Part shown: positions 13,572 to 31,027 of the stretch, piece after piece
How positions within the stretch are numbered: position 1 is the stretch's first letter
Layout of the letters: each line of letters starts with the position of its first letter
Assembly (NCBI RefSeq): GCF_020386975.1
Contig: NZ_JABFNK010000001.1
Coordinates: forward strand, 62,001-126,000
Origin: Thermococcus bergensis
GTDB taxonomy: Archaea; Methanobacteriota_B; Thermococci; Thermococcales; Thermococcaceae
Length of the DNA stretch: 64,000 bases
Reading direction: 5' to 3'
Made by a program: the position numbers and the translations under genes
The notes under the pieces: model-generated
The model's input: only the letters and a program-made list of their open reading frames with translations
What the model was told of the DNA's origin: nothing
Databases searched by the model: none

Positions 13572-14810
13572 TCAATCTTCTGGTGAAATCCCTCCTCGTG
13601 AGAATGGGAAAGCAAAGAGTAGGGGAACTCTTTCAGAGAACCCACCAAACACCTTGCCCTCGAAAAATGGTCTTTCGCTTATCACGTAATACATGGCATC
13701 TTCCGTAACTATCTCGAAAGCATCATGAAGGTACTCCTCGTCAAATAGAATTACCAGAGTGTTTCTGCCAGTAGGCCAAACCTTACCAGTAAACGAAAGC
13801 TTCCCGCGAGTTCCTGACAATAATCCAGTGACCCTTCTGAAAACCTTGACATAATCAATATCCTTCTCAACCCAGCTGCTATACATTCCATCTGAGATGA
13901 ACATTATCCTCCCGTTGTTCCCAGCTGCAATAGTGGCGATAACGGCGGAAATTTCATCTCGATAAAACTTGAACTTCCCTGGAAGGTCAAGGTAAGTTCT
14001 ACCCTCAGGCGTATTAAAGATAACAACATTCCAATCCTTCTTTTCTGGATCGTTTGCTATCTTTCTGAGCAAGTGGTTAAGCCCCCCTGCCAGTCCCCCA
14101 AGAACGTGGGTAGCTTTGTCTTTATCAAGCTCCTCTGTCTCTACTCTTTCTGCAACCTCTAAGAAGTGGAGTGCGAGGGTCATTGGTGGGATGTCAAGGT
14201 TTTCGACGATTACTGGATCGGCGAAGAATACTGAGAGCGCCTCAAGGGTGCTCTTGTATTTAATGTCGTTCAAGTGGGTGAGCACGTGCATGAGTAGGGG
14301 CTTGTATTGGTATGTTCTTATTAGCATGTATGCAGTGTTGTCTGGGTCGTTGTCGTTTAGGAGTATTTGGTTGGCTAGGGTTACTCCCAAGTGTTTTTCG
14401 AGGTATTCTTCAACTTCACTTGGGACTGAGTAGTAAGAGTAAAGTTCGGTTTTTGTGCGGGGCATTTCTTTGATTAGTTTTTTGAGCTGGTTGGCGTATT
14501 GGTTTGGTTCTTCTTTGTGGATTTTGTGGTAAATTTCGATGAAGTTTATCACGTCTCCTAGGTGCATGATTGCGTTTGGTGCGAGTTTTTTGAATTCTTC
14601 TGGGGTTGGTTTTGTTGCGGCTAGTGCTGTTAGTGCGAAGATTCTTGAGAGGTGCTTTTGCCTTATTATTCTCAAGAATTCTGCTTTTTCTTCGAGCGGT
14701 ATTGGCCCGAAGGCTGTTTTGATTTCTTCGATGTAATCTTCAGTGTACTTCCTCTCGAAAGAGAGGGCATCTTGAAGGTATATTTCATAGAGAGTTCGTT
14801 TTCCCGACAT
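13572..14810 (-). CDS. Uncharacterised 412-residue protein
   Basis: I do not recognise this family. The N-terminal two thirds is helical (IPLEEKAEFLRIIRQKHLSRI, YLEKHLGVTLANQIL). The C-terminal third looks alpha/beta, with strands such as VVIFNTPEGRTYLDL, IMFISDGMYSSW and TLVILFDEEYL. No membrane segment is present. The start is ATG 14810 or the adjacent ATG 14813, behind GGGGTG. It is convergent with the gene ending at 13396 across a 175-bp gap that shows nothing clear. It marks the left border of the defence island. Its upstream region (14814-15027) is AT-rich and shared with the divergent gene at 15028. Confidence 0.7.
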   Translation of the reverse strand: MSGKRTLYEIYLQDALSFERKYTEDYIEEIKTAFGPIPLEEKAEFLRIIRQKHLSRIFALTALAATKPTPEEFKKLAPNAIMHLGDVINFIEIYHKIHKEEPNQYANQLKKLIKEMPRTKTELYSYYSVPSEVEEYLEKHLGVTLANQILLNDNDPDNTAYMLIRTYQYKPLLMHVLTHLNDIKYKSTLEALSVFFADPVIVENLDIPPMTLALHFLEVAERVETEELDKDKATHVLGGLAGGLNHLLRKIANDPEKKDWNVVIFNTPEGRTYLDLPGKFKFYRDEISAVIATIAAGNNGRIMFISDGMYSSWVEKDIDYVKVFRRVTGLLSGTRGKLSFTGKVWPTGRNTLVILFDEEYLHDAFEIVTEDAMYYVISERPFFEGKVFGGFSERVPLLFAFPFSRGGISPED

Positions 14811-15027
14811 CATTCACACCCCCTTTAACATAAACCAAATCAGAACCCTATAATAAATATTGTTTTTTCGATTGTTGAACATATGTCTCGAAATAAATTG
14901 TAAAATATATTAAGATTATTAGGAATATGTAAAGAAAAGGACCAGCATATCAAGCTCTCCTAAAAAAGAAAGTATGACTTAGAAATATTTTTAAGTAGTT
15001 CAAATTAATACTTTTCTGGTGATTTGT

Positions 15028-15788: not shown

Positions 15789-18700
15789 ATGTATCGGCTT
15801 GTTGGAGAAATTGAAAGTAATCTTAAAGAGCTTAAACCTGATATGGGAACAGAGGAAGCAATAAACTATTTTAGAAATATTTTCATTGATGCGTGGAAGT
15901 TCAATTATGTTGATGAGATCATCCCTGAGGACATGCTTAATGAATTTGTGGCACAAAACACTGATATGATTAAAATCATTGCAAAAACAAACCCGCCTGA
16001 AGGTGAGAGTTTCTACGTTGTCTACGCTAAAAGTAAAAGTGACACCATAAAATACAGACAAAGACTTGTTAAGGATCTTCTCGACTTCACGTATTCAGTT
16101 GGATTGGAATTCGCGAATTTTCTGATAATCTTGGACTACTCAAAATACTGGAAGCTTGTAGTTCCAATCTACAGGAGAGAGCTTGAAAATGCCAAGCTCA
16201 ATATCTATGTAATTGACCCAGAGGAGGGAAAATTCAGGACTCTTGTGAAGAACTTGGCCAGTGTTGCTCAGGAGCTTGAAGAATTTTACAAGAAATCGAA
16301 AAAGCATCCACCGGCAATCCAAATAAAAGCCCTCATAGATGAATACATGCACGTTAGGCCTCTTACAGAGGAGTTTTTCAAGGAGTACAAAGAGTACTAT
16401 TCCAAACTTAAGGACTCAATAAAAAAGCGTTACGGGAAAAAACTTGGGGAATCTTATGTTGGCGAGTTGCAAAAAGAGATATTTGTTGAAAGAGCCGCCA
16501 AGACCTTTGCTCATACATTCCTCAACAGATTAATGTTTGTCTATTTCCTTCAAAAGAAAGGATGGATTGTCGAGAAACCAGCTCTCAGGAAGGATCTACA
16601 GGAGAGTGTTGACGTCAAAAACTTCGTCAGATGGCTGTATGAGCAGTGGGTGGAGTATGGAGGGGAGTTTTACAAGGATTACCTTAGAATTTTGTTCCTT
16701 TATGCAATGAATACGCCAAGAGTGGGATATGCAAGAAGGGATATAAAGGAAATACAAGCGATTCCATCCCCAATAGTTAGGGACGTGTTCACCTACGGGA
16801 TTCCCTATTTCAACGGTGGTCTGTTCAACCATGTTACAATAGAGGGCATTGATTTGGACGAGATCATAACTTCCCTTCCAGATAACGTTGTGAAAGAACT
16901 TATATTTGATTTCTTTGAAGAATACAGCTTCACAGTTACGGAAGATACTCCCTATGAAGTTGAGGTTGCTGTTGATCCAGCAATGTTAGGAAGAATTTAC
17001 GAGTCACTTATAACCGCCGAAGAGCAGGCTGGAAGTGAGGAAGAGGAGAGAAGAGCATCAGGAATCTTCTACACGCCGAGGAGCGAAGTTGACTTCATGT
17101 GCAGGATGGCAATTTATGAGTATTTGAAGAAGAACACCAAAGTTGATGACGTTCTTCTAAGGGAGTTCGTGTTTACGCCGCTTCATGAATGGGAAGGAAG
17201 GTCACTACCAAGGGAACTACTCAGTGCTCTCGAGAGCGTTAAGATAGTCGATCCAGCAGCTGGAAGCGGAGCTTTTCTCGTGGGAATGTTTCATCTTTTA
17301 ACGGAACTCTACGAAAAGGCTAGGGTAAAGGTAGATTATGAAAGAAAGCTCGCTATAATCAGGGAGAACATCTACGGCGTTGACATCAAAGAGTGGGCGA
17401 TAAGGGTTGCCAAGCTCAGGCTTTGGCTGGCATTGATTGAAAAGGAAGAAGAGAGTCCAAACGAACCAATTTTACCAAATCTCGAGACGAAGTTAGCAGT
17501 TGGCGATTCACTTGTGCCTCCTCACTTTGTTCTTAGAATAAATGGGAAGAAAAGGATAATCGAAATACCCCTTGCCAAATTTAGAGAGAGTCTCAAGCTC
17601 CTTTGGGCTAAAAAGGGTGCGGGTGAAGCAATAGTCCATTACAAAGATCTAGTGAGAAAGTACTTCATGGGTGAAAAAATTGATGGAAAGCCTGTGAAAT
17701 TAAAAGATATCGAGGAAGCTAAATGGGGAGCTCTTCAGGAGTTCCTAGAGACAGCACTTGAAGAAGATTTAAAGGCCAAGGAGAAGAAGGAAATAAAGCT
17801 GCTCTTAGAAGCGGTATCAAAGCAGGATTACTCGGCTCTGGAAAAACCACCATTCATCTGGGAACTTGATTTTCCCGATGTGATGCTCGAAAAGAAGGGC
17901 TTTGACATAGTAATAGCAAATCCGCCCTACGTGAGGCAGGAAAAGATTTATCCAGAGTATTACGACTTGGCAGAGTTTCAGATGCTTCCAAAGAAAGAAC
18001 AGGATAGATTAAAGAAGGAATACAAGGAGAAGATAATCGAGCATATGAAGACAATAATCAAAGAGAAGTTTGAGCACGAGATGAAGCTGAACAAGAGGAG
18101 CGATTTATATGTTTATTTCTTCATCCAAGGTGTCAACCTGCTCAACCCCAAAGGAGCTCTAGTGTTCATTACCTCCAACTCATGGCTTGATGTTGATTAT
18201 GGAACATCTCTGCAGGAGTTCTTCCTGAGGTTCACGAACTTGAAGAGGATTATTGACTACACGACAAGGTCTTTTGAGCAGGCCGATGTAAATACCGTAA
18301 TCACCGTGCTAACTAGAAAACCCAAAGAGCTGTTTAACACCGTTGATGAGGGTTGTGTGAACTTTGTCCTCCTAAAGAGGAGCTTTGATGAACTGAGCCG
18401 TGAAATAATAGAAAAGATGCTCGAATGTTATGCCGGAAAAGTTAAGGAAGTCGAAGTCTTCGGAGGAAAAGTATACTCCTACGAGGACGATGACATCAGG
18501 GTGAGGAGCGTCAAAGCTGTAGAGCTCGCAAAGATGGGCGGGCTTGAGATAGGTACAAAGAACCTCCTGCTCGGCTCCTACAACGTCTTTGGTGAATACA
18601 AAGGTATGAAGTGGGGCGGGATACTCATAAGGGCTCCAAGGATATTCTACGTGATCCTCGACAAGGGGAAGGACAAGCTTGTAAGACTAGAGCGGATTGC

Positions 18701-19646
18701 AGATGTTACTAGAGGATTCACAACGGGAGCGAACGAGTTTTTCTACCTTGAGCCGATAAGGAACCCGGTAGAGTGGCCGGTGTGCAAAATCTGCGGCAGA
18801 GTCCATGAGCCGGGAGAGGGTTTGGTAGCCGTCAAGAATAAGGCGGGATGGGAGGGTTACATTGAGGGGGAGTTTCTGAAACCCCTGATTAAAAGTCCCA
18901 AGGATCTAAAGCATCTCATTGTAAAACGTGAAGATCTAACAATGATGGTGTTTATGTGCGATATCTCTCCAACTAACCTTGAGAATGAGTACTTCCATGC
19001 GTTTAACTATGTCCAATGGGGAGAGAGCAACAAATATCACTTACGTCCAACAGTTAGAGGTCGTAAATATTGGTATTCACTACCAGAACTTAGACCTCCT
19101 CAAATATTAATCCGACAATTCTTCAATCACAAATTTGACAGTCCGTACAATCCAAACTATTACCCCACTGACCATACCTTTTATTATCTTACTAGCATAC
19201 CTCAAGAGCAGGAGGAGGTCATAGCTGCAATACTAAATTCGACAATCACAGCGCTATTGATCGAGTTGTTGGGGCGTAAAAACATGGGAGAGGGCGTTTT
19301 AACTTTGTATGGGCCAGAGTGGAGGAATTTGCTAGTTGTGGATGCGAATCTGCTAAATAGTATCCAACATAGAAGGCTAGTACAAGCCTTCGAACAGATG
19401 GCCAACCGCGAAATCAAGTCCATCTTCGAGGAACTCGGCCTTCCAAAGCCAAACAGAGACTTCAGCAACATCAACCCAGAGGACGTCTCCCTCGACAAGG
19501 TTCTCCCCGACAGGCGCGAGCTTGACAGAGTGATCTTTGAGGCGCTTGGCCTTACGGAGGAAGAGCAGCTTGAGGTCTACAGGGCGGTTGTCGAGCTCGT
19601 GAAGGCGAGGCTGGTGAAGGCGAAGACGTTTTCGAAGAGGAGGTAG
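15789..19646 (+). CDS. Type IIG-like restriction-modification enzyme, Eco57I-type methylase
   Basis: This 1285-residue single-chain enzyme carries the gamma-class N6-adenine methyltransferase motifs: FYTPRSE (motif X region), DPAAGSGAFLVG (motif I, about 488), IYGVDIKEWAIRVAKLRLW, NPPYVRQ (motif IV, about 711), and a downstream TaqI/Eco57I-like specificity region with a CxxC pair (CKICGR). The N-terminal ~200 residues (FYVVYAKSKSDT, FLIILDYSKYWK) could be a degenerate PD-(D/E)XK nuclease, but I cannot place a full catalytic set. No separate REase or S subunit adjoins it, which favours type IIG. A phage-exclusion methylase such as PglX is an alternative, but no pglZ or brxC is in view. GGGGGTAT precedes ATG 15789. 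It converges on the HEPN-MNT pair with 66 bp between. Confidence 0.8.
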   Translation: MYRLVGEIESNLKELKPDMGTEEAINYFRNIFIDAWKFNYVDEIIPEDMLNEFVAQNTDMIKIIAKTNPPEGESFYVVYAKSKSDTIKYRQRLVKDLLDFTYSVGLEFANFLIILDYSKYWKLVVPIYRRELENAKLNIYVIDPEEGKFRTLVKNLASVAQELEEFYKKSKKHPPAIQIKALIDEYMHVRPLTEEFFKEYKEYYSKLKDSIKKRYGKKLGESYVGELQKEIFVERAAKTFAHTFLNRLMFVYFLQKKGWIVEKPALRKDLQESVDVKNFVRWLYEQWVEYGGEFYKDYLRILFLYAMNTPRVGYARRDIKEIQAIPSPIVRDVFTYGIPYFNGGLFNHVTIEGIDLDEIITSLPDNVVKELIFDFFEEYSFTVTEDTPYEVEVAVDPAMLGRIYESLITAEEQAGSEEEERRASGIFYTPRSEVDFMCRMAIYEYLKKNTKVDDVLLREFVFTPLHEWEGRSLPRELLSALESVKIVDPAAGSGAFLVGMFHLLTELYEKARVKVDYERKLAIIRENIYGVDIKEWAIRVAKLRLWLALIEKEEESPNEPILPNLETKLAVGDSLVPPHFVLRINGKKRIIEIPLAKFRESLKLLWAKKGAGEAIVHYKDLVRKYFMGEKIDGKPVKLKDIEEAKWGALQEFLETALEEDLKAKEKKEIKLLLEAVSKQDYSALEKPPFIWELDFPDVMLEKKGFDIVIANPPYVRQEKIYPEYYDLAEFQMLPKKEQDRLKKEYKEKIIEHMKTIIKEKFEHEMKLNKRSDLYVYFFIQGVNLLNPKGALVFITSNSWLDVDYGTSLQEFFLRFTNLKRIIDYTTRSFEQADVNTVITVLTRKPKELFNTVDEGCVNFVLLKRSFDELSREIIEKMLECYAGKVKEVEVFGGKVYSYEDDDIRVRSVKAVELAKMGGLEIGTKNLLLGSYNVFGEYKGMKWGGILIRAPRIFYVILDKGKDKLVRLERIADVTRGFTTGANEFFYLEPIRNPVEWPVCKICGRVHEPGEGLVAVKNKAGWEGYIEGEFLKPLIKSPKDLKHLIVKREDLTMMVFMCDISPTNLENEYFHAFNYVQWGESNKYHLRPTVRGRKYWYSLPELRPPQILIRQFFNHKFDSPYNPNYYPTDHTFYYLTSIPQEQEEVIAAILNSTITALLIELLGRKNMGEGVLTLYGPEWRNLLVVDANLLNSIQHRRLVQAFEQMANREIKSIFEELGLPKPNRDFSNINPEDVSLDKVLPDRRELDRVIFEALGLTEEEQLEVYRAVVELVKARLVKAKTFSKRR

Positions 19647-19712: not shown

Positions 19713-20357
19713 CTAAAACGTGTAAAACAAGTCCGACCCTTTAAGGACCGTGAAGGCCTCGTACTTAATCCCCCACAGCTCAAGAAACTCCCTAAAGCGG
19801 TACGTGTGCTGGACGGGCACCGCTATCACCCACGCTCCCCACTGCTCGCCGTTGAGCTCCCTCAGCAGGCCGCTTCTCATGTCCCTTCCCTTCAGCGCGT
19901 ACTGGAAGCGCACCCTATCCTTCCTCTGAAGACCATCCAGAGTGAAGCGGAAGATGGCGTAGGCTTTTCCGTTAATCAGCTCCGCGAGGTTCTTGCCATG
20001 ACGGAGGGAGTAGCCCTCAACCAACACCCCAAGGCTCGCGAGGTTGTTGGGATCGAAGAGCTCTTCGATGCTCATAGCCCTAATGTCGAGTTTTTCCCGG
20101 GGGATCGCCTTGGATAGGTCCCCTTTCAGCTCGAGTATCAGCTCCCGGAGTTTCAGGGGCGGAAGTTTCCCGCGGGTGAGTATCATCAGGTCTATGTCGT
20201 TGGGTTTTTCCTTTCCCAGCACCGTCGAGCCGTAAAGGACTACATCGAAGACTTCCTCGTGGTTTTTTAGAAAGTCCCCCACAGAATCTCTGAGGTGCCA
20301 GAGGAAGGAAAAGGAGAGAAGACGTTCAGATTTTGGTGTAGAGTCCGTGGACGTCAT
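19713..20357 (-). CDS. MNT-type nucleotidyltransferase, partner of HEPN protein
   Basis: This 214-residue protein has the minimal nucleotidyltransferase signature LYGSTVLGKEKPNDIDLMIL, that is GS with a paired DxD. A third acidic candidate is in LDIRAMS. A C-terminal extension of about 90 residues (YALKGRDMRSGLL onward) is longer than the smallest MNTs. The gene overlaps the end of the HEPN gene by 32 bp on the same strand, so the two are coupled. In HEPN-MNT modules the MNT protein acts as antitoxin, in studied cases by adenylylating the HEPN ribonuclease. That role is inferred here from family and order. Confidence 0.85.
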   Translation of the reverse strand: MTSTDSTPKSERLLSFSFLWHLRDSVGDFLKNHEEVFDVVLYGSTVLGKEKPNDIDLMILTRGKLPPLKLRELILELKGDLSKAIPREKLDIRAMSIEELFDPNNLASLGVLVEGYSLRHGKNLAELINGKAYAIFRFTLDGLQRKDRVRFQYALKGRDMRSGLLRELNGEQWGAWVIAVPVQHTYRFREFLELWGIKYEAFTVLKGSDLFYTF

Positions 20358-20655
20358 TCTTTAACACCTCCACCCATTCCTTTGTGGCTCTCATTAGATA
20401 GGCTTTCCTATAGTTGTTGAAGTGGAAGTCCACAATATCATAAATCTCTGGATACTTGATCTCTAGAATCCTGAAACGTTCAGTATGGTTTCTTGGAAGT
20501 TTTCCAGTATCCCTGAGGATGATATAGTCGCAAATCGCCGCGAGGGCCTTGAAGTAGAGGTTTAAAGCCGAGTTGTAGTGGCCTTTGTTGAATAAGTAGT
20601 CTGCGTCTTCGAGGTATTCTTTGGCGTTGGCCTTGAGTTCCTGAGGACTAACCAT
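20326..20655 (-). CDS. HEPN-domain protein, probable toxin
   Basis: This protein of about 109 residues starts at ATG 20655 (VSPQELKANAKEYLEDADYL). It is a four-helix HEPN bundle with LFNKGHYNSALNLYFKALAAICDY, then RDTGKLPRNHTERF in the loop where the ribonuclease motif lies. The spacing between Arg and His here does not clearly give the classic R-x4-6-H, so RNase activity is unproven. Directly upstream is an array of palindromes around TATA sequence that is likely its operator. It is first in the operon and overlaps MNT. Confidence 0.85.
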   Translation of the reverse strand: MVSPQELKANAKEYLEDADYLFNKGHYNSALNLYFKALAAICDYIILRDTGKLPRNHTERFRILEIKYPEIYDIVDFHFNNYRKAYLMRATKEWVEVLKNDVHGLYTKI

Positions 20656-20668
20656 CCGATTCTCCCCA

Positions 20669-20760
20669 TTGTCATGATAACCAATAGCATATATATAAAG
20701 CTTTTTGTTATCATGATAACAAAAAAGATGAAAATAGGAGAATTTATTATCATGATAACC
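20669..20760 (-). promoter_or_regulatory. Three-site palindromic operator of the HEPN-MNT operon
   Basis: Three sites share the core TCATGATAAC. The middle is a perfect 14-bp palindrome GTTATCATGATAAC (20707-20720). The third is TTATCATGATAA (20747-20758) and the first TGTCATGATAAC (20670-20681). The CATG centres at 20673, 20712 and 20751 are exactly 39 bp apart. A TATA run (ATATATATAAAG, about 20689-20700) lies between sites one and two, so binding would block the promoter. This looks like toxin-antitoxin autoregulation by cooperative binding. Confidence 0.75.
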
Positions 20761-20789
20761 CCGGCAGGCAAGATGGGTCATAAGAGAAA

Positions 20790-20950
20790 AATCCGGCACA
20801 AAATCTTTAATCAAATGAGGGCCTCTCACCAGTGATCGGGTTTTCACTTAAGGAGACAATTTAACTAACAACACCAACTTTTTACGGGTTGTTGGTCAAA
20901 TTGAAAATCATGAAGTCCATCATCCAGTACTCCTATCGACGTACGGAGGC
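20790..20950 (+). repeat. Regulatory scar: degenerate copies of two downstream promoters
   Basis: Bases about 20795-20850 (CTCACCAGTGATCGG...TTTTCACTT) resemble the promoter and start of the AAA gene at 20975-21025 (CTCATCACTAGTGATGAG...TGTTCACTT). Bases 20858-20950 resemble the AbiE operator and start at 23050-23140: the arms CAATTTAACTAACAAC and GTTGTTGGTCAAATTG frame a T-rich core, followed by ATGAAGTCCATCATCCAG, against ATGAGACCGATCACCCAG in abiEi. No coding sequence follows either copy. The order matches the intact cassette downstream. Confidence 0.6.
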
Positions 20951-20999
20951 AGAAACTCACGAGTCTTCAGTGGGCCCAAAAACCTTAAATAGATGAAGG

Positions 21000-21017
21000 C
21001 TCATCACTAGTGATGAG
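21000..21017 (+). promoter_or_regulatory. Perfect 18-bp palindrome touching the AAA gene start
   Basis: CTCATCACTAGTGATGAG is a perfect palindrome that ends one base before the GTG start at 21018. A TATA-like CTTAAATA lies at about 20982, so transcription would begin in or next to the palindrome and the mRNA may be nearly leaderless. This is the position of an operator or roadblock. A degenerate copy (CTCACCAGTGATCGG) lies about 175 bp upstream in the scar. Confidence 0.65.
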
Positions 21018-22118
21018 GTGTTCACTTTGTTCAGCACGCGCCCGGTTCGAGAGGAGAAAAACCTCCATGGAGGACAACACAGAGAAGCAGTAAAGAAGCT
21101 GAGAGAAACCATTGAAGATGGCGACTTTGTGGCAGTCCTTGGGCCAAGAAGAGTGGGAAAGACTAGCGTTATCAACGTTTTCTTAAACAAGTATGGTTCA
21201 AAGTACAGGTACCTCTATTACGACCTTGCATTTGGAATGGGGCGGGAAGCGATAAGCTACACCGAGCTTACGCCAGTATCGACCAACATCTCGGAGGAGG
21301 AGCTTGAGTACTCGGCGACACTTAACCTAGGTCTCGTCAAAATGGACATAAAACCCAGAGGAATAGCGGAGTTCCAAAACGCCTTCATCAACCTTCTGAG
21401 GTACATCAACAGTCAAAAAAAGAAAACAGTAGTCATCTTTGATGAGGCCCAAGTCCTTCCGAGATTCGCTCCCCTGAGTATGCTTGGAATGCTTCAAACT
21501 ATCTCGGATAGTTTTGAGAACGTTACTGTAGTCCTGTCGGGTTCGATGCCAGGTCTCTTAGAAAGGATAATAAATCCAACTGAGGACAGGCCTTTCTTTG
21601 CGAGGTACGTTGAGAGGATAAACATCCCCCGATGGGACATAGAGGAGAGCGTGGAATATCTGAAAAAGGGCCTTCCAGATGCTCCAGAAGAAGAACTCAA
21701 GGAAGCTGCGAAGGAGCTTTCAAACGTACCTGGTTTTTTGGCATATTACGGTAAGCTCAGAACTAAAGGAAAAACCCATGAAGAAGCCCTCTCAATGACA
21801 GTTAATTATGGGGTTAAGCTCTGGAAGGAGGATTTGAAGAACTTTATCAGGATTTATAAGTCCCCTGCCTACATTATTGCCCTGAGGACTATCGCAAAAG
21901 GTCCTTCTTATGGAGTGACGACTGAAGAAGTCGTTACTGAAATAACATCAACGTTGAAAATCTCTGAAAGGCGAGCCAAGGAAGTGTTGAAAAACCTTAT
22001 TGATGGAGGTTTTCTCGTAAAGCCCAAGAGAGGAATCTATCAAATCCCCGAGAGGCCTCTGAGAAAAGCTGTGCTGGAGTTTAAAGTTGATGTTTCAGGA
22101 GGTGTTGTTGTCCTATGA
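21018..22118 (+). CDS. Archaeal AAA/STAND-like ATPase paired with a nuclease
   Basis: This 366-residue ATPase of the archaeal MoxR-unrelated P-loop group (PF01637-like) has Walker A GPRRVGKTS (about 43) and Walker B VVIFDEAQ (about 138), with a sensor-type VVLSGS. The C-terminal ~70 residues form a winged helix (TTEEVVTEITSTLKISERRA, LIDGGFLVKPKRGIYQI). It starts at GTG 21018 directly after an 18-bp palindrome. It overlaps the nuclease gene by 4 bp (ATGA), so the two act together. Family members are often found in mobile and defence regions of archaea. The trigger and partner are not known from sequence. Confidence 0.8.
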   Translation: MFTLFSTRPVREEKNLHGGQHREAVKKLRETIEDGDFVAVLGPRRVGKTSVINVFLNKYGSKYRYLYYDLAFGMGREAISYTELTPVSTNISEEELEYSATLNLGLVKMDIKPRGIAEFQNAFINLLRYINSQKKKTVVIFDEAQVLPRFAPLSMLGMLQTISDSFENVTVVLSGSMPGLLERIINPTEDRPFFARYVERINIPRWDIEESVEYLKKGLPDAPEEELKEAAKELSNVPGFLAYYGKLRTKGKTHEEALSMTVNYGVKLWKEDLKNFIRIYKSPAYIIALRTIAKGPSYGVTTEEVVTEITSTLKISERRAKEVLKNLIDGGFLVKPKRGIYQIPERPLRKAVLEFKVDVSGGVVVL

Positions 22119-23059
22119 AAATCCTCCTCAAAGACTGTGCTAAATATGTTCCTTATGAATATAAAAATGAGGCTGAGCTTGAAGGCATGGTTTTTGAACA
22201 CTACAAAGAAATCTTCGGAGAAAATTCCCTCCTTTTTTCAAAGAGGAAAATCAAAAGCCCTGCGAAGATAGGGACGATTCCAGATGCATTCGTAATCGAC
22301 TTTAAGTCGAAGAAATGGTTTGTGGTAGAGATTGAGTTAAGTAATCATCCAGTTTATGAGCACATTGTGACTCAGGTAACCAAATTTATGACTGCAACTA
22401 AATTTCCAGAATCAAAACAGGAACTCGCTAAAGCAATCTATAACGAAATAATAAGCGATCCATACAAAAGAGCTCTTCTTGAGGCAAATGGGATAAAAGA
22501 AGACAAATTCAAGGAAATTCTTGAAATCATAGAAACTTCACCGGCAATAGTGGTGATAATTAATGAGCTAACCAAAAAGATCAATGAAGCTGTTAACTTG
22601 CTCTCAAATGCCCTAAAATTCAACGTTAGAGCAATTGAATTTAAAACATTCAGAAGAGAAAATTCACATAGTTTGAATGACCACATTCATGTATTCGAGA
22701 TTATCACTCAAAGAAGTGGGTTACCAGAAGACCATAAAACTAAACCGAAAAGTTCGCACATCTTAAAAGGAAAAAAGATTATCCTTAAGATGATTGAGGA
22801 AGGATACCTATACCCAGGATTTAAGATTCACGGGGAATATAGGGGAGAACTATATGAGGCAGAAATTCTTGAAGACGGTAGGATAAGGATAATTAACGAT
22901 GGTAGCATACACACTAGCCTATCAAAAGCAGCATTTCATATAACAAAGAAAGGTACAAATGGGTGGTATTGGTGGAAATATAAGGATGAAGAAGGGCGTG
23001 AACATGAGATTGACGAGCTCCGTCAAAAGTACTTCCAGCATGAAAGCAAATTGATTTGA
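22115..23059 (+). CDS. PD-(D/E)XK-like nuclease with C-terminal RAMA/DUF4357-like domain
   Basis: This 314-residue protein has IPDAFVIDF followed by KKWFVVEIEL in the N-terminal half (about 54-75). This fits a PD-(D/E)XK core with Asp and ExE-type acidic residues, although the usual Lys is not certain. The C-terminal ~80 residues contain SLSKAAFHITKKGTNGWYWW, the pattern of RAMA/DUF4357 domains that accompany restriction and methylation systems and are proposed to read modified DNA. It is coupled to the upstream AAA ATPase by a 4-bp overlap, and its stop codon lies within the AbiE operator. I infer an ATPase-driven, modification-aware nuclease system. Confidence 0.65.
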   Translation: MKILLKDCAKYVPYEYKNEAELEGMVFEHYKEIFGENSLLFSKRKIKSPAKIGTIPDAFVIDFKSKKWFVVEIELSNHPVYEHIVTQVTKFMTATKFPESKQELAKAIYNEIISDPYKRALLEANGIKEDKFKEILEIIETSPAIVVIINELTKKINEAVNLLSNALKFNVRAIEFKTFRRENSHSLNDHIHVFEIITQRSGLPEDHKTKPKSSHILKGKKIILKMIEEGYLYPGFKIHGEYRGELYEAEILEDGRIRIINDGSIHTSLSKAAFHITKKGTNGWYWWKYKDEEGREHEIDELRQKYFQHESKLI

Positions 23060-23095
23060 ATAACAACCACTAATTTTTTATAGGTTGTTATTCAA
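23056..23095 (+). promoter_or_regulatory. AbiE operator: perfect 13-bp inverted repeat flanking the TATA box
   Basis: TTGAATAACAACC (23056-23068) and GGTTGTTATTCAA (23083-23095) are exact complements separated by 14 bp holding TTTTTTATA. The ATG at 23106 is about 26-29 bp from the TATA, so the mRNA is likely leaderless. A protein bound to both arms would cover the transcription-factor sites. AbiEi-type antitoxins are known to repress their own promoters by binding inverted repeats. Confidence 0.8.
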
Positions 23096-23105
23096 AATTA
23101 ACATC

Positions 23106-23732
23106 ATGAGACCGATCACCCAGATACTCCTCGCTGAATTTGGGGGCAAAGTTATAACCCGGGAAGAACTCGAAAAACTCTCCGCTTATTTAAAAGTAGA
23201 TGACGTTGACTACCTCGTGAATTACCTCATCCAATATGGCTATCTTATAAGGATTCTGAGGGGACTTTATTATGTTAAAACGCCAGTCGAGTTTTCCCTT
23301 AAAAGTCCACCCTCCATCTACAAGCTTCTTTCACTGGGAATGAACAAAATAACGAAGAACTGGTACTTTGGCCTGTTCACGGCATTGGTTTTGAATGGGT
23401 TAACCCATGAACACTATACGACAATTTTCATAATCAACGATAAGATAGCGAGGACAAAAATTATTCACGTGAATGGGATACCAGTCAGGATAATCAGAAC
23501 CAGAAAGGAGCTTTTTGACTTCGGAATACTCAGAAAAAACGGGATAAAAGTTTCCGATTTAGAAAAGACACTCTTAGATTTCCTTTACTTTGGGAGCTAT
23601 GGAACGGTTTCACGAGAACTTGCCTTAAAAATCTGGATAGAGTATAGAGATAGTGCAAACTGGGAAAAGTTGAAGAGGTACTTGGGTAAATATCCAAAGT
23701 CCCTTGCAAAGGTGGTTGGAGATGCCAAATAA
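23106..23732 (+). CDS. AbiEi-type antitoxin and autorepressor
   Basis: This 208-residue protein has an N-terminal winged helix (VITREELEKLSAYLKVDDVDY, LIRILRGLYYV) and a C-terminal domain (VSDLEKTLLDFLYFGSYGTV) typical of the AbiEi/type IV antitoxin family. The ATG 23106 has no ribosome binding site and fits a leaderless transcript from the TATA at about 23077. The end overlaps the toxin start by 11 bp. It likely binds the inverted repeat immediately upstream. Confidence 0.85.
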   Translation: MRPITQILLAEFGGKVITREELEKLSAYLKVDDVDYLVNYLIQYGYLIRILRGLYYVKTPVEFSLKSPPSIYKLLSLGMNKITKNWYFGLFTALVLNGLTHEHYTTIFIINDKIARTKIIHVNGIPVRIIRTRKELFDFGILRKNGIKVSDLEKTLLDFLYFGSYGTVSRELALKIWIEYRDSANWEKLKRYLGKYPKSLAKVVGDAK

Positions 23733-24741
23733 TGAAATTCTGTTCAAAATCAAAGAAAACGAAAGAAAAAGCTTCGCTAACTTTGTTTCAAGAAAAACAG
23801 GCATTAAAAACATAGACTTAGTTGAGTGGGATTACATCATCCACACCCTCCTCAAGGAACTTGAAAAAGATCCCTATTTTAGGGAAAACTACATCTTTAA
23901 AGGCGGGACGTGCTTGGTTAAATGTCATTTGGGTTATTACCGCTTTAGTAGAGATTTAGACTTTGCATACAGAAACAGTGGGGAACTTCAGGAGATGTCA
24001 AGAAGCAAACTCAAGAAATTCCTGAGTGAAGAGACAGGGAGAATAGCCGAAACCCTAAACTGTGTTGCGAAAGACCTTGGATTGGAGTTTTACTACAGAG
24101 ACCACAAGGACTTTAACAACAACCGCTACTTTAGTTTTTTGATAGGGCCTGGATGGTTTAGAGAAATAATTGCCTATTCTCCAGCAGGAGAGAAAATAAA
24201 GTTGGAGTTCAACTATGCTGAAAGGTTCGCTTTTAGACCAAGAACTGTCAAAGCACACACTCTTCTCTCATGGAAGAAATCAAAACTGGAGGTTAGAGAT
24301 TACGAAAAATACGCTGAGTTTCTTGGAAACTATTATCCCCTTAAACTCCTAGCGTACCAAGATAAGGAGATCTTAACTGAAAAAGTCCGTGCCATCCTAA
24401 CGAGGAGAGAGTTTAAACTTCGGGATCTGTATGACCTTTACAAGCTCTATCAGGTTAAGGGTCTAAAGCTCAAAAAGTACAAAAAACAAATAGGCATGAA
24501 AATAGAAAATTATCTCAGCATGAGTAACAATGCCCGTGAGAACTTTTTAAAAGCTATCCAGGAGCTTAGACGGGAGGATTACTCGCGTACAATCAGATCA
24601 GAAATTGAGAAGGACATCATTCTAATCGTTGAAGAGTTTGAAAAGGATAAGTTCCTTAAGTTTGTAGAGTCCCTCAGGAGAGAACTGTTGGAATTCATTG
24701 AATCAGGTGCATTCGGACATCTCATCGGGAGGAGGGAATAA
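23722..24741 (+). CDS. AbiEii-type nucleotidyltransferase toxin
   Basis: This 339-residue nucleotidyltransferase carries FKGGTCLVKC and FSRDLDFAYR, the GG-T and DxD-type motifs of the AbiEii/MenT-like family. It starts at ATG 23722 behind GGTGGTTGGAG, inside the end of abiEi. Family members block translation by modifying tRNA; that is knowledge of relatives, not shown here. The stop is 2 bp before the helicase start, so the toxin pair and the helicase may share one transcript. Confidence 0.85.
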   Translation: MPNNEILFKIKENERKSFANFVSRKTGIKNIDLVEWDYIIHTLLKELEKDPYFRENYIFKGGTCLVKCHLGYYRFSRDLDFAYRNSGELQEMSRSKLKKFLSEETGRIAETLNCVAKDLGLEFYYRDHKDFNNNRYFSFLIGPGWFREIIAYSPAGEKIKLEFNYAERFAFRPRTVKAHTLLSWKKSKLEVRDYEKYAEFLGNYYPLKLLAYQDKEILTEKVRAILTRREFKLRDLYDLYKLYQVKGLKLKKYKKQIGMKIENYLSMSNNARENFLKAIQELRREDYSRTIRSEIEKDIILIVEEFEKDKFLKFVESLRRELLEFIESGAFGHLIGRRE

Positions 24742-24743
24742 AA

Positions 24744-27700
24744 GTGTCCGCGATTAGTCTCTTGAACAAATACGGCCTTGTTGATAACCAGAGAGTAACC
24801 CTCCTTGATGTTTTGAGAGAGGTATTAACCTCTGGCAATTACAAACAAATAGATGCCGCAGTCGGCTTTCTCTTCATAAGCGGGCTAAAAGAAATTCAGC
24901 AGGAACTCGATAATTTTTTCTCTCAAGGAGGGAGAATGAGGATAGTAATTGGAAACCAAACTGACAGAGAGACTTATGAACAGCTCAGCATGGCTTACCA
25001 CTCTCTTGAAACACTGAGGGAACTCAAGGAGAAGAATCAAAGAACTAAGCCCGATCTCGATGAGCAAGCGGAAGACTTAGAAAAGAACACAAACTTCATG
25101 GAGCAAACTGAGGAGAATGAGAGGTTCCTCAACAAACTCGTCTCATGGCTTGAGAACGGAAGCATCGAGATTAAAGTGTATGTCAAGGAGTTCATGCATG
25201 CAAAAGCATATCTCTTCTATCCAAAAAGTGAGTCAATTTCCCCAATTGGCCTTGTTGGGTCAAGTAACTTCACACTTGCTGGATTTTATGGAAACACTGA
25301 GCTGAACGCGGGGCTGTTTGCAACCCACTTTGAGAGTCTAAAACAGTGGTACGAGTGGCTGTGGGAAGAAGCAGAACCGTTCAATCCAAAGTTAATTGAG
25401 GTCATCAATAGAAGCTGGTCTGGCCAGAAACCAGGAAGTTTTCCCTCTCCATATGAGGTTCTCATAAGGGGTCTCTATGAGCTCTACAGGGATATCGTTG
25501 AAAAAGATACTGGATTTTTGCTCAGAAGCCTCTATGATGTCCTTTATGATTTCCAGCTGGATGCTGTCAAAAGGGGTATTTCAATAGTGAACAAGTATGG
25601 AGGGGTCTTGATAAGCGATGTCGTTGGCCTGGGAAAAAGTTTTATAGGTTTGGCAATACTGGAACACTTCTCACTTCTGGACTTGCTTAATGGAAAATCC
25701 AACAAAGTTGCAGTAATCGCTCCCCCAGAACTCGTTAGCTACTGGGAAGAGTTGCTTAAAAACTACAACATAGAGGGAAGAGTGTTCTCTTCAGGACTGC
25801 TACCGAGAAAAGAAACGTCTCCAGAAAAGTACGCCGAAATGGAGAACTACATTAAAAATCAAGTAAATACAGTTTTGGTTGATGAGTCTCACCATTATGC
25901 AAATCCACAGATAAAATCCTACAAGAATCTCCAAGAGCTCCTTCTTGGAAAAAGGGCAATACTCTTAACAGCTACCCCGTATAGAAAGCAGTACCGCGAT
26001 ATTATCAATCAAATTCGCCTCTTCAGACCCGAAAGAAAGCATCCCTTCCCGATAACGCCTCAGACGTGGGACGATTTAGTCAGGGCTATTGAAAAGGGCG
26101 AAGTGGACCCATCCTATGTCCTTAGGGAGATTATGATAAGGAGAACAAGACATGATATCTTGAAGCTCTATGGGGGAAAAGAGAATTGTATCAGAGTCAA
26201 AAACAAGAAGTTGTGCTTCCCAGAGAGAAGACTGAAAGTTCTTGAATACAAGATTTCTGAAATTTATCCCTTAGAAAAAGTTCCTAAAGAGCTTGTGGAA
26301 GAAATTTCAGAAGGCTCAACAATCCAACCAGTTGACATTTATACATTATTTTTAGCGGGCATAAATTCAATGAAGTATGCAAGGTTTGCCCTTCATGATT
26401 ACGTTAAGCCACAGTTTAAAGACAAAAACCCATACTCTGACTTATCTACCGTTGGGAGGAATTTGAGGGGATTAGAAAGAATACTCTACCTAAAACGTCT
26501 TGAAAGTTCCTGGTACTCAATGTACCAGACTCTCAAGAGAGACATTATCAAAACAGAGAACTTTTTGAAGTTTGTGAAGCATGGATTTATTGCTGCTGGT
26601 GAAGAGTTCAGCGATGTTCTGCTGGGCAAAATTAATGGTAAAGAACCCCACATCCTAAGTGACGAAGAAATAAGAGAGTTTATTGAAAATTACACGAAAA
26701 CGACGGAGCCAGAATACAAAGCAGGAGCTTTTGATATAAAACGACTGATATCAGATTTAGAGTACGATTTAAAGAAGCTCAAAGCTATGGAAGAGGTGTT
26801 AAGACCTCTTAAAGAAGATCTTGAAAAAAAGCCTTGGAAAGATCCAAAATTGTCAAAACTAGCATCACTGATAGATGATCTAACGAGGTATCAAAAAAGA
26901 AAAATTTTAATCTTCAGCGAATTCGAAGAAACTGTTCAGTGGATTTATACCGGATTGGACAAACTTGGCTACACCAAAAATCACAAAATTGAAATGGTCA
27001 GCTCCAATACAAAAGGAATAGTGGACAAGATTAGGCGTTTTGCCCCCAAGTCCAATAATTATGAAACCGAGGACGAAATTGACATATTGATTTCCACAGA
27101 TGTCCTCAGCGAAGGTCTGAACCTTCAGGATGCAAATGTTGTTGTTAATTACGATTTACATTGGACTCCGATAAAGCTAATCCAAAGGATTGGTAGAGTT
27201 GACAGAATTGGAACTGAGTATGATGAGATACTGGTTTATAACTTCTTCCCAGAAAAGGGACTAGAAGAAAATCTTGGTCTGCTTGAAAAGGTTAGGAGAA
27301 GAATAACTGAATTCAACAATGCGTTGGGTGCAGACGGTAAGATTCTTGAGGAAAGCGAAGAATGGAATCCTTCAGCAATTGAAGCAATTTATAGGGGACA
27401 GATTGAGGCTCTTGAAAGCACCACAGACATTTTTTCGGTAACGACATTAGCTGAAAAGCTCGTTAGAGAATTTAAAGAGAATAACAGAGAGCGCTTTGAA
27501 GAGCTAACAAGAAGATACTCAATGAGAAGTGTTGCTAGATACAAAGGTAATGACTACTATGCCTTTTTTGTGTGCAGTGACGGCGATATCTCCCAGTATT
27601 TCATTTACAAAAGGCATGAGGACACCTGGATCCAGCAGAACATTTCCTTGGAGGAGCTCCTAGAACTCACGAAACTAAATGAAAAGACAGAGCCGTTCAA

Positions 27701-28136
27701 CGAATTTAAGGAGATGCATGTATACTATGAAGCTGCGGAAAGAGTTCTACAGGATTTCGAAGAGCTTAGGATAATTAAGGAAAGCAGCTTAACCTTCAAA
27801 AAACTAACGAAACATCCTCCAAATGTGAAAAAGATACTCGGAAAGCTGTACAACAGGATGATTAAGAGTAAAAAAGAGTCTGAAAGAGAATACCTCGGAA
27901 AACTAATAGATTTGGTTAAGTGGGGTTATGCAAATCACGAGTTGTTTGCAAGGGCGCTCAGAGAGATAAACCCGAATATGGGTGTCGAAAAGATTATATC
28001 AGCTTGTGAAAGATTAATTCAAAAGTATAGAATCCCGGCAAGAAAAGAAGAACTAGAAGCAAAGAAAAGAGAACTAGGCACTAAAGGAGTTAAGCCACAT
28101 ATTGTTGCTGGTATTCTCTTTGCTCCAGAGATCTAA
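24744..28136 (+). CDS. PLD-nuclease-like plus SNF2/Superfamily 2 helicase
   Basis: This 1130-residue protein starts at GTG 24744, preceded by GGGAGGAGGG. Residues about 1-210 are phospholipase-D-like, with one clear HxK (FMHAKAYLFY, about 150) and GSSNFTLAG; with one HKD per chain it would need a dimer. The helicase follows: DVVGLGKSF (Walker A, about 293), VDESHHY (DEAH-type box, about 380), LLTATPYR (motif III), STDVLSEGLNLQ and QRIGRVDRIG (motifs V-VI, about 790-820). A ~300-residue C-terminal extension is unassigned. PLD-helicase fusions are typical of prokaryotic defence loci. Its end overlaps the convergent DUF365 gene by 4 bp. Confidence 0.85.
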   Translation: MSAISLLNKYGLVDNQRVTLLDVLREVLTSGNYKQIDAAVGFLFISGLKEIQQELDNFFSQGGRMRIVIGNQTDRETYEQLSMAYHSLETLRELKEKNQRTKPDLDEQAEDLEKNTNFMEQTEENERFLNKLVSWLENGSIEIKVYVKEFMHAKAYLFYPKSESISPIGLVGSSNFTLAGFYGNTELNAGLFATHFESLKQWYEWLWEEAEPFNPKLIEVINRSWSGQKPGSFPSPYEVLIRGLYELYRDIVEKDTGFLLRSLYDVLYDFQLDAVKRGISIVNKYGGVLISDVVGLGKSFIGLAILEHFSLLDLLNGKSNKVAVIAPPELVSYWEELLKNYNIEGRVFSSGLLPRKETSPEKYAEMENYIKNQVNTVLVDESHHYANPQIKSYKNLQELLLGKRAILLTATPYRKQYRDIINQIRLFRPERKHPFPITPQTWDDLVRAIEKGEVDPSYVLREIMIRRTRHDILKLYGGKENCIRVKNKKLCFPERRLKVLEYKISEIYPLEKVPKELVEEISEGSTIQPVDIYTLFLAGINSMKYARFALHDYVKPQFKDKNPYSDLSTVGRNLRGLERILYLKRLESSWYSMYQTLKRDIIKTENFLKFVKHGFIAAGEEFSDVLLGKINGKEPHILSDEEIREFIENYTKTTEPEYKAGAFDIKRLISDLEYDLKKLKAMEEVLRPLKEDLEKKPWKDPKLSKLASLIDDLTRYQKRKILIFSEFEETVQWIYTGLDKLGYTKNHKIEMVSSNTKGIVDKIRRFAPKSNNYETEDEIDILISTDVLSEGLNLQDANVVVNYDLHWTPIKLIQRIGRVDRIGTEYDEILVYNFFPEKGLEENLGLLEKVRRRITEFNNALGADGKILEESEEWNPSAIEAIYRGQIEALESTTDIFSVTTLAEKLVREFKENNRERFEELTRRYSMRSVARYKGNDYYAFFVCSDGDISQYFIYKRHEDTWIQQNISLEELLELTKLNEKTEPFNEFKEMHVYYEAAERVLQDFEELRIIKESSLTFKKLTKHPPNVKKILGKLYNRMIKSKKESEREYLGKLIDLVKWGYANHELFARALREINPNMGVEKIISACERLIQKYRIPARKEELEAKKRELGTKGVKPHIVAGILFAPEI

Positions 28137-29516
28137 AATTGGCTTTGGATTTCTTGATATTCTTTTTCTTTCACATACCTTCCCGAAACTGCGATAAATC
28201 GTTTTGGTTTCACAACCTTCGGATACTTTTTAACGTTACTTAAAACTATTGCCATCCACGGTCTCTGCCTTTTTCCCTTTGTTTTCCATCGTTCAGAAGT
28301 TTTAACATACTCTTTGAACTCTTTCTCAGTTAAGAAAATTCTATCTCCATATTTCTCTAAGATCTTCGCTGGACTCTCAAAGAACTCAACCTCTCCAATT
28401 TCTGCTTCGCCATAAAATCCTTGATCTTCCCTTGAGGCATAGAATATTATTACCCTAGTTCCCATTAGATCGTTAGAGTTATAAGCACTTAAGTCTTTTG
28501 ATTGATTGGTGGTTGTATTGAGCTTTCAGAGGAAAATCCTGATCATAAAATCCGAAATCTACCCGATAATCAGCAAACACTACCCGAAAAACACTCGCAG
28601 GGAAATAATCAGCCTCTACGACCTAATAACCTTCGCAATACTAGCACACTTGCACTTTAACGGAGTTTACAAGCACGCTTACAGAGTCCTAATCGAAGAA
28701 ATGAAGCTGTTCCCCAAAATCAGGTACAACAAACTAACAGAACGCTTGAACAGGCACGAAAAACTCCTGCTCCTAGCGCAGGAAGAATTATTCAAAAAAC
28801 ACGCCAGAGAATACGTTAGAATACTGGACTCAAAGCCCATTCAGACCAAGGAGTTGGCCAGAAAAAACAGGAAGGATAAGGAGGGTTCTTCAGAAGTCAT
28901 CTCTGAAAAGCCCGCAGTTGGGTTTGTTCCCTCTAAAAAAAGTTTTACTATGGGTACAAGCTGACCTGTTACTCTGATGGAAATTTGCTGGCTTTACTGT
29001 CTGTTGATCCGGCGAATAAGCATGATGTGAGTGTTGTCAGGGAAAAGTTCTGGGTGATTGTTGAGGAGTTTTCCGGCTGTTTTCTGTTTTTGGATAAGGG
29101 GTATGTTAGCAGGGGGCTCGAGGAGGAATTTCTGAGGTTTGGCGTTGTTTACACGCCAGTAAAGCGGGGGAATCAGATTAGTAATCTGGAGGAGAAGAAG
29201 TTTTACAAGTACTTGTCTGACTTTCGCAGGAGGATTGAGACTTTTTAGGTTTTCTGAGTTTCTTCTGAGGCCGAGCAGGAGTGTTAGTTTGAATGGGTTA
29301 ACTGTCAGGATTTTAGGGGCGATTCTGGCCGTGAATCTGGACAGATTATACAACTTCACAGGTGGTGGGAACTAGGGTTATTATTTTCATTCCGGGCTTA
29401 AGTCTTGTGAGTGTTGCTGGTTTTACAAAAACATCTTTTCCCTCCTCGAAAATCCTTCTCAATAATGGCTTTGGTACGGGAAAAGTTGCTCCAATGATAG
29501 TCTCCCCTTTACTCAT
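28133..29516 (-). pseudogene. DUF365-family gene split by IS982 copy 2
   Basis: The N-terminal part starts at ATG 29516 behind GGAGGTGATTTT and encodes SKGETIIGATFPVPKPLLRR up to GMKII. The C-terminal part (28133-28451) continues IFYASREDQGFYGEAEIGEV. They are separated by the element at 28452-29378, with the 7-bp duplication TATTATT on both sides (28445-28451, 29379-29385). Joined, they give a small archaeal protein of the DUF365 family, a PUA-like domain group. The neighbour on the other strand is an EVE-domain (also PUA-like) gene. Confidence 0.75.
28452..29378 (+). mobile_element. IS982-type insertion sequence, copy 2 (927 bp, defective)
   Basis: It has the ACCCTAGTTCCCA and TGGGAACTAGGGT ends and TSD TATTATT. 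The transposase has the A7 split (28935-28941) as in the other copies, but its ATG is replaced by TTG in VLSFQRK. A net 5-bp loss at about 29245 stops the second frame early (RRIETF), removing the C-terminus. This is the most decayed copy and should not make active transposase. Confidence 0.85.
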
Positions 29517-29615
29517 CAAAATCACCTCCAATCATCTTGGTTTCCTAAGAATAAATAATTTTTGGAAGAGCAATCCTTATTTAGAACTTCAACATAAAAA
29601 ACTTAGGTGGTTTCA

Positions 29616-30047
29616 ATGGCGTATTGGCTCTGCATAACGAATAGGGATAACTGGAAGGTTATCAAGGAGAAGAACGTTTGGGGCGTGCCAAGGAGGCACA
29701 AGAATACCATTGCCAGAGTAAAACCCGGAGACAAACTCGTAATTTACGTAAAGCAGGAAAGAAAAGATAAGCAAATCCTTGAGCCGAAGATCGTGGGAAT
29801 TTTTGAGGTTGTGAGCGAGCCTTATGAGGATTCAAGCAGGATTTTCAAGAGCCCACCGCACTTGAACGAAACCTATCCGCTCAGGGTGAGGATCAAGCCC
29901 ATAAAGCTTGGAGAGGTTGAGTTCAAGCCTTTAATTCCAAAATTGAAGTTCATTACCAATAAGAAGAAGTGGAGCGGGCATTTAATGGGCAAGGCAATGA
30001 GAGAAATCCCGGAGGAGGACTATGAGCTAATAAAGAGCTTGTTGTGA
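29616..30047 (+). CDS. EVE-domain protein (PUA-like fold)
   Basis: This 143-residue protein, [20 protein letters not shown], starts at ATG 29616 behind AGGTGG. EVE domains adopt the PUA/YTH fold and bind modified bases in DNA or RNA. Typical features seen are the opening YWLCI, the Trp in WGVP, and the central GDKLVIYV and [12 protein letters not shown] strands. The gene lies between two IS982 copies in direct orientation. EVE proteins in archaea often sit in or near defence and restriction loci, consistent with this position. Confidence 0.88.
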
Positions 30048-30095: not shown

Positions 30096-31027
30096 ACCCT
30101 AGTTCCCATTAGATCGTTAGAGTTATAAGCACTTAAGTCTTTTGGTTGATTGGTGGTTGTTATGAACTTTCAGCAGGAAATCCTGATCATAAAATCCGAA
30201 ATCTATCCGATAATCAGCAAACACTACCCGAAAAACACTCACAGGGAAATAATCAGCCTCTACGACCTAATAACCTTCGCAATACTAGCACACTTGCACT
30301 TTAACGGAGTTTACAAGCACGCTTACAGAGTCCTAATCGAAGAAATGAAGCTGTTCCCCAAAATCAGGTACAACAAACTAACAGAACGCTTGAACAGGCA
30401 CGAAAAACTCCTGCTCCTAGCGCAGGAAGAATTATTCAAAAAACACGCCAGAGAATACGTTAGAATACTGGACTCAAAGCCCATTCAGACCAAGGAGTTG
30501 GCCAGAAAAAACAGGAAGGATAAGGAGGGTTCTTCAGAAGTCATCTCTGAAAAGCCCGCAGTTGGGTTTGTTCCCTCTAAAAAAAGTTTTACTATGGGTA
30601 CAAGCTGACCTGTTACTCTGATGGAAATTTGCTGGCTTTGCTGTCCGTTGATCCGGCGAATAAGCATGATGTGAGTGTTGTCAGGGAAAAGTTCTGGGTG
30701 ATTGTTGAGGAGTTTTCTGGCTGTTTTCTGTTTTTGGATAAGGGTTACGTTAGTAGAGAACTTCAGGAGGAATTCCTGAAGTTTGGCGTTGTTTACACGC
30801 CGGTGAAGCGGGAGAATCAGGTTAGTAATCTGGAGGAGAAGAAGTTTTACAAGTACTTGTCTGACTTTCGCAGGAGGATTGAGACTTTGTTTTCGAAGTT
30901 TTCTGAGTTTCTTCTGAGGCCGAGCAGGAGTGTTAGTTTGAGGGGGTTAGCTGTCAGGATTTTAGGGGCGATTCTGGCCGTGAATCTGGACAGATTATAC
31001 AACTTCACAGGTGGTGGGAACTAGGGT
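30096..31027 (+). mobile_element. IS982-type insertion sequence, copy 3 (932 bp)
   Basis: It has terminal repeats as in copy 1 and a 6-bp duplication ACAATA (30090-30095 and 31028-31033). It is full length, with an intact start and no change beyond the A7 split. It is almost identical to copy 1 (for example LLRPSRSVSLRGLAVRI against LLKPSRSVSLRGLVVRI), which suggests recent transposition. No gene is interrupted. Confidence 0.88.
30162..31024 (+). CDS. IS982-type transposase, -1 shift at A7
   Basis: It starts at ATG 30162 (NFQQEILIIKSEIYPIIS) after GGTGGTTGTT. The first frame ends at TGA 30606 after the A7 run (30579-30585), and the second frame (SFYYGYKL, then LALLSVDPANKHD) ends at 31024 in the terminal repeat. 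The product would be about 287 residues with DDE residues in ILDSKP, FLDKGY and RIETLFS. Identical architecture in copy 1 supports programmed use of the A7. Confidence 0.8.

Follow-up and report, generated by a model that had tools for sequence, protein, structure and literature searches.

The closest described relatives of the gene pair considered here are fusions of an archaeal ATPase with an HTH and a RecB-type nuclease domain. PDC-S01 and PDC-S27 are ATPase-HTH-PD-(D/E)XK fusions listed as defence candidates (PMC12988326), and arCOG03166, an archaeal ATPase fused to an HTH and a RecB-type PD-(D/E)XK domain, is regarded as likely to act in defence (PMC4158269). Nucleases are also joined to the RAMA domain, which has been proposed as a reader of adenine methylation (6mA); such fusions are noted as candidates, and the RAMA-Mrr-NTPase and GIY-YIG-RAMA forms are suggested to work in type IV restriction (PMC11037411). 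In addition, it is an established idea (“guilt-by-embedding”) that one defence system can harbour the genes of another, the Hma-embedded candidates being a case.

A locus on contig NZ_JABFNK010000001.1 of Thermococcus bergensis contains the same ingredients as PDC-S01, PDC-S27 and arCOG03166, namely ATPase, HTH and PD-(D/E)XK domain, but those are fused, whereas here the nuclease is encoded by a separate, overlapping gene, is from a different PD-(D/E)XK family and has a RAMA tail. The split into two coupled genes, the nuclease family and the RAMA tail are what is new in comparison with the known fusions. With the RAMA-nuclease fusions the pair shares RAMA and a nuclease, and with one of them also an NTPase; those, however, are single-chain proteins of the Mrr-type PD-QXK or GIY-YIG class, while the pair has a PD...ExE nuclease, the order nuclease-RAMA and its NTPase in trans. 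The sequence-only reading knew of no named system with this pair. Indeed, no PADLOC or NCBIfam model describes the exact combination, and NCBIfam has no model for either protein; the claim needs the qualification that ATPase-HTH-PD-(D/E)XK fusions are recognised candidates. The exact combination is without an established name, each half resembling known parts, and a 2024 embedding preprint may already list the pair.

In the window, that is, the whole stretch of 64,000 nucleotides that was analysed, the ATPase gene occupies 21018–22118 on the + strand, starts with GTG and encodes 366 aa, and the nuclease-RAMA gene occupies 22115–23059 (+; ATG start, 314 aa). The 4-bp overlap described from the sequence is confirmed: ATGA is common to the ATPase stop and the nuclease start, and a Shine-Dalgarno-like GGAGGTG is found 5′ of the latter at 22098–22104 (+). 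The pair with its ATGA overlap also occurs in two of 114 other Thermococci genomes (G068 and G072, both Thermococcus MAGs). Across the phylum, the nuclease is present in 3 of 115 genomes, in all three of which the ATPase lies directly 5′ with the same overlap; a RAMA profile scan of the 115 genomes, for which a Caulobacter control was positive, returned these three genomes only, and no unpaired RAMA nuclease was found in this sample. That both MAGs encode the two proteins with the same overlap shows that the pairing is not a matter of chance. These counts comprise three paired loci, two of them in MAGs; further copies may be hidden where genomes are fragmented (completeness is 79% for the close relative G102), and much of sequence space was covered by pattern-based scans only.

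The ATPase matches PDB entries 2qen (E 6e-24) and 2fna (E 3e-23) over nearly its full length and scores above the cutoff for ATPase_2 (PF01637; E 1.2e-10). Its Walker A motif, GPRRVGKTS, lies at residues 42–50, its Walker B motif, VVIFDEAQ, at residues 138–145, and a C-terminal winged-helix-like region at residues ~290–345. The protein had been called an AAA ATPase from the sequence; it is an archaeal ATPase, for which “AAA” is a loose term and ATPase_2 with a winged helix the precise type. By eye, LHGGQHREAVKKL and NVPGFLAYYG look similar to the N-terminal (G)RE-like and the GxP motif of STAND-type NTPases, but the match to nSTAND3 is weak (E 0.084). In PADLOC, the ATPase partially matches PDC-S27 (E 8.8e-14, profile positions 13–299 of 474) and PDC-S01 (E 2.8e-10). 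No PD-(D/E)XK domain is found in the ATPase chain, which comes to an end with residue 366, beyond the winged-helix region. The family has many solo copies across the phylum, and relatives of this ATPase are mostly solo. Two such solo relatives (L009 and L010) stand directly behind a tyrosine-recombinase-like gene, an adjacency suggestive of mobility of the ATPase gene itself.

The predicted promoter of the pair (20980–21017, +) comprises a TATA-like AAACCTTAAATA at 20980–20991 and a palindromic, operator-like CTCATCACTAGTGATGAG at 21000–21017, which abuts the GTG start of the ATPase. The palindrome lies between the TATA-like box and the start whether or not a nuclease gene follows, and is found at the same place 5′ of all paired ATPase genes and the closest solo ones. 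Solo relatives with 73–79% identity have nearly the same palindrome at the same position, and ATPase groups at 68–70%, 50–52%, 45% and 36% have other palindromes there, some of them imperfect. Such subgroup-specific palindromes would be expected of ATPases that each bind an operator of their own via the winged helix. In the loci L006–L035, the palindrome set 5′ of the starts differs from one ATPase subgroup to the next, often with several half-sites.

The nuclease domain is placed at 22169–22726 (+; about residues 19–204) by alignment, structural model and fold match. Its N-terminal ~200 residues match no family in profile searches, and a PDB sequence search with the nuclease gave chance matches only. 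In the AlphaFold model of the nuclease-RAMA protein (pLDDT 78), P56-D57 and E72-x-E74 are on adjacent strands, the strands 58–62 and 67–74 carrying or adjoining D57 and E72/E74. Structure comparison of residues 12–204 gave Z scores of 8.5 for PaqCI, 8.1 for FokI, 7.6 for EndoMS and 7.3 for N.BspD6I; as a Z near 8 is modest by itself, the fold assignment leans on the conserved motif and on the top-ranked structural matches, most of which are PD-(D/E)XK enzymes. An eight-row alignment keeps E19, E23, D57, E72, E74, H78, H83, Q87 and K90, and the acidic set is conserved from Thermococcus through Planctomycetes to one viral contig. The catalytic lysine of (D/E)xK is absent, E72-x-E74 being present in all aligned relatives; because this lysine is a glutamate, cleavage cannot be assumed. 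The same replacement of lysine by glutamate is found in BamHI, an active enzyme. A PD-(D/E)XK fold with the BamHI-like motif PD57...E72-x-E74 is a supported prediction, and the nuclease fold assigned from the sequence stands, the conserved acidic residues being found in the structural model.

The one addition from a global genome scan was a protein from a Phycisphaerae MAG, with 35% identity to the nuclease over the full length. It has no adjacent ATPase, and the ORFs of its locus, judged by eye, include a Vsr-like endonuclease, C5 and N6 methyltransferases and a putative restriction enzyme. Other Planctomycetes and one viral contig encode the N-terminal nuclease module joined to DUF5655-like or other C-terminal domains. 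The DUF5655-containing PD-(D/E)XK proteins share a homologous N-terminal module with the same PD...ExE...H...H...Q signature, but differ in the C-terminal domain, which is RAMA in the nuclease of the pair. No relative of the nuclease was found in plasmid and phage collections. A viral scan with the full nuclease alignment returned nothing, and one with the N-terminal domain alone returned a single viral contig, L073, on which the module (1219–2175) is fused to a DUF5655-like domain and lies beside apparent virion genes. The best viral structure match, gp54 of Bacillus phage G, is PD-(D/E)XK-like with no evident RAMA, and was set aside for its different architecture.

The C-terminal part of the protein (22730–23044, +; residues 206–310) had been described as RAMA-like and as a possible reader of modified DNA. 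The profile search shows a true RAMA domain: residues 206–310 score 62.4 bits against PF18755, for which the cutoff is 35.2, the structure comparison of this part gave Z 12.0 to MPND (7ydw) and 11.4 to CcrM (6pbd), and the best NCBIfam match of the nuclease is the RAMA part of CcrM. The reading of modified bases stays a proposal. Binding by MPND was unchanged by 6mA in one study, and solved RAMA domains touch the DNA backbone with no base contacts (PMC9963953), so that modified-base reading is only one option for RAMA. The domain also matches the RAMA region at the C-terminus of the PADLOC candidate PDC-S14 (E 3.3e-13), but only profile positions 176–274 of 280 are covered, the N-terminal part has no match, and PDC-S14 is listed as a single-gene system.

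The pair had been placed in the middle of a defence island, and Pfam and PADLOC profile searches agree that the neighbouring genes are defence genes. The larger unit is a cassette found at ~15 Thermococcaceae loci, mostly without the pair, which is one of its cargoes. The left fixed gene (15789–19646, +) encodes a type IIG-like adenine-specific DNA methyltransferase with NPPY and DPAAGSGAF motifs (PF07669, E 1.4e-32; PADLOC REase_MTase_IIG, E 1.7e-55), relatives of which are present in 16 of 115 genomes. The right fixed gene (24744–28136, +) encodes a PLD (HKD) and SNF2-type helicase (PF00271, PF00176, PF13091; PADLOC C3a139 HKD+Snf2, E 2.8e-57) with relatives in 18 of 115 genomes. The two mostly point in the same direction with a few kb between them, and most cassettes are flanked by genes for a DUF365 protein, usually after the helicase (28133–28465, −; PF04033, E 1.3e-41), and an EVE-domain protein (29607–30047, +; PF01878, E 9.3e-25). 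Among the 17 loci mapped, some of them cut by contig ends, the pair lies between both ends in all three paired loci and is missing from at least 12 other cassettes. Sitting inside a cassette that occurs with various cargo, the pair is a module embedded in another system and does not stand in isolation; as most cassettes are without it, it was no longer regarded as a necessary component of the methyltransferase-helicase system.

The methyltransferase and the PLD/SNF2 helicase form fixed ends, between which swappable defence cargo is arranged in a recurrent order. The first position is held by TIR, KwaA/KwaB (Kiwa), MBL+OLD or a ~600-aa protein. A ~250-aa helical protein comes next, and then SMC-like/OLD ATPase, HEPN, HEPN/MNT or PIN genes; these are succeeded by the ATPase-nuclease pair, by AbiEi/AbiEii and lastly by the helicase. 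Kiwa, AbiE, OLD/Gabija-like and TIR genes, all of them known defence, share the slot with the pair, as do HEPN/MNT and PIN. In the window, the other cargo consists of an MNT nucleotidyltransferase (19713–20357, −; Polbeta PF18765) and a HEPN protein (20326–20847, −; weak HEPN matches), a pair also found in G053, and of AbiEi (23085–23732, +; PADLOC E 4e-109) and AbiEii (23704–24741, +; PADLOC E 2e-136). The ~250-aa protein (L061:7125–7865 and relatives) directly follows the first cargo module in ~11 cassettes, and the ~600-aa protein takes the first position in three (L005:5398–7212, L065:3839–5641 and L072), its L005 copy having no Pfam or PADLOC match. A 413-aa protein encoded beside the cassette at 13572–14813 has no Pfam or PADLOC match either. 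Two near-identical transposase gene pairs (28506–29248 and 30150–31024) flank the EVE gene 3′ of the helicase. In a second cassette of the same genome (G000:C5:457500–477400; L069), the methyltransferase and the helicase are both broken by transposon genes.

Several described systems resemble this cassette in part. The archaeal SNF2-nuclease, methyltransferase and EVE systems of the COG1743-DUF499 type have in common with it the adenine methyltransferase, the PLD/SNF2 helicase and the EVE gene, but the cassette has an Eco57I/type IIG-like methyltransferase and variable cargo between the two genes, and a DUF499-centred system was rejected since no DUF499 match was found among the neighbours scanned. 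DISARM, which needs drmA, drmB and drmC, was also rejected: there is one helicase with only partial DrmD/DrmA similarity, and a PADLOC scan of ten neighbouring ORFs found neither DrmB nor DrmC. BREX was considered and set aside after profile scans of the neighbours. The Hma-embedded candidates are like the pair in being modules within a host defence cassette, but their host cassette differs, the Thermococcaceae helicase being only partially HmaA-like.

The paired ATPases form one branch of the tree (support 98/95), which is most simply explained by the pairing having arisen once. The coupling of ATPase and nuclease is genomic and holds in all three loci, but the recent histories of the two genes differ. 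Ks is 0.48–0.65 for the ATPase and ranges from 1.9 to saturated for the nuclease, these being simple NG86 values from three sequences that indicate a direction only and no dates. Between G068 and G072, identity is 92–95% across the gene junction and ~65% from about nuclease codon 35–55, which looks like a replacement of the nuclease allele downstream of the junction under a constant ATPase. The RAMA part is the least conserved (68 and 52% identity). Furthermore, 20795–20849 (+), which is 74.5% identical to 20973–21027, is a remnant of an ATPase promoter and start, and 20859–20934 (+), 77% identical to 23054–23131, is what is left of the promoter and initial codons of an AbiEi gene. The window and G068 have both kinds of remnant 5′ of the pair, the AbiEi remnant at this place being longer in G068, and an ATPase-promoter remnant lies 5′ of the helicase in G056. 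They are read as scars of rapid cargo turnover in the slot. The HEPN ORF (20326–20847) is N-terminally extended into the ATPase-start remnant; because the matching ORF in G053 has 109 aa, its GTG start as called is probably wrong and the true start inside the ORF.

The best explanation, to which a probability of roughly 0.42 is given, is that the pair is a DNA-defence module, in which a self-repressing ATPase switch licenses a RAMA-guided DNase, carried as cargo of a restriction-like cassette. The ATPase would bind, via its winged helix, the palindromes at its own promoter and keep expression of the operon low. On an invasion signal, its nucleotide state would change and the operon would be released, and the ATPase would then license its translationally coupled partner. 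RAMA would place the PD-(D/E)XK DNase on duplex DNA, and the DNase would cut, as a second line, invading DNA not stopped by the outer methyltransferase/helicase system. Autorepression, switching, ATPase-nuclease contact, cleavage, trigger and RAMA target are what we infer here; the domains, the ATGA overlap, the embedding in 3/3 loci, the single ATPase branch, the subgroup palindromes, the conserved acidic set, the slot shared with known defence and the bacterial relative beside methyltransferases, a Vsr-like gene and a putative restriction gene support the explanation. The differing histories and the occurrence of the N-terminal module elsewhere without the ATPase mean that cutting may be possible without the ATPase. 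It is conceivable, if only tentatively so, that the nuclease alone carries out type IV-like restriction, its RAMA targeting a foreign modification pattern and the ATPase being a transcription regulator only. The proposed reading of adenine methylation and the candidate RAMA-nuclease fusions (PMC11037411) would fit this, as would the palindromes at solo ATPase copies and the Phycisphaerae relative, which is without an ATPase, yet has methyltransferases at its locus. However, the indifference of MPND to 6mA speaks against it, simple 6mA dependence would endanger a host whose own adenine methyltransferase adjoins the pair, and a purely regulatory ATPase would not require a conserved coupled overlap.

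Recruitment of the nuclease by the PLD/SNF2 helicase, as an extra effector of the methyltransferase-helicase system, is unlikely, as at least 12 other cassettes do without the pair, AbiE stands between nuclease and helicase in two of the three loci, and the helicase already has a PLD nuclease domain; in its favour, the nuclease of G068 ends ~40 bp before the start of the co-oriented helicase, the pair is found only inside the cassette in the phylum sample, and archaeal EVE and PD-(D/E)XK/PLD-SNF2 associations have been described. The operon is coupled and looks autoregulated, and HEPN/MNT, AbiE and PIN modules occupy the same slot, all of which would suit a toxin-antitoxin-like arrangement, with the ATPase restraining a self-toxic DNase that is freed on infection as an abortive response; this too seems improbable, given that a nuclease relative exists without any ATPase and that the antitoxin-first reading comes from gene order only. 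Finally, a mobile solo ATPase could have landed 5′ of an unrelated nuclease with which it has no joint function, and the mostly solo ATPase relatives, the unequal synonymous divergence and the promoter scars, read as rapid turnover of the slot, would accord with such gene drift. That is very hard to reconcile with an overlap, order and pairing kept in three lineages while the nuclease alleles approach saturation, and with the lack of unpaired RAMA nucleases in the phylum sample.

A bolder and rather doubtful proposal is that a constant, self-regulating ATPase switch controls exchangeable RAMA-guided nucleases differing in the DNA they recognise, the pair being the prototype of an unnamed two-component system that travels as a plug-in for the ordered methyltransferase-helicase slot. 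ATPase_2 is a strongly expanded family in hyperthermophilic archaea, and most of its members are without a known job. This locus links one ATPase_2 protein to a recognisable DNA-targeting nuclease and to subgroup-specific palindromes, and thereby opens the role of the ATPase to direct tests. With fixed ends that enclose ordered, exchangeable modules, the cassette is an obvious target in the search for further archaeal systems.
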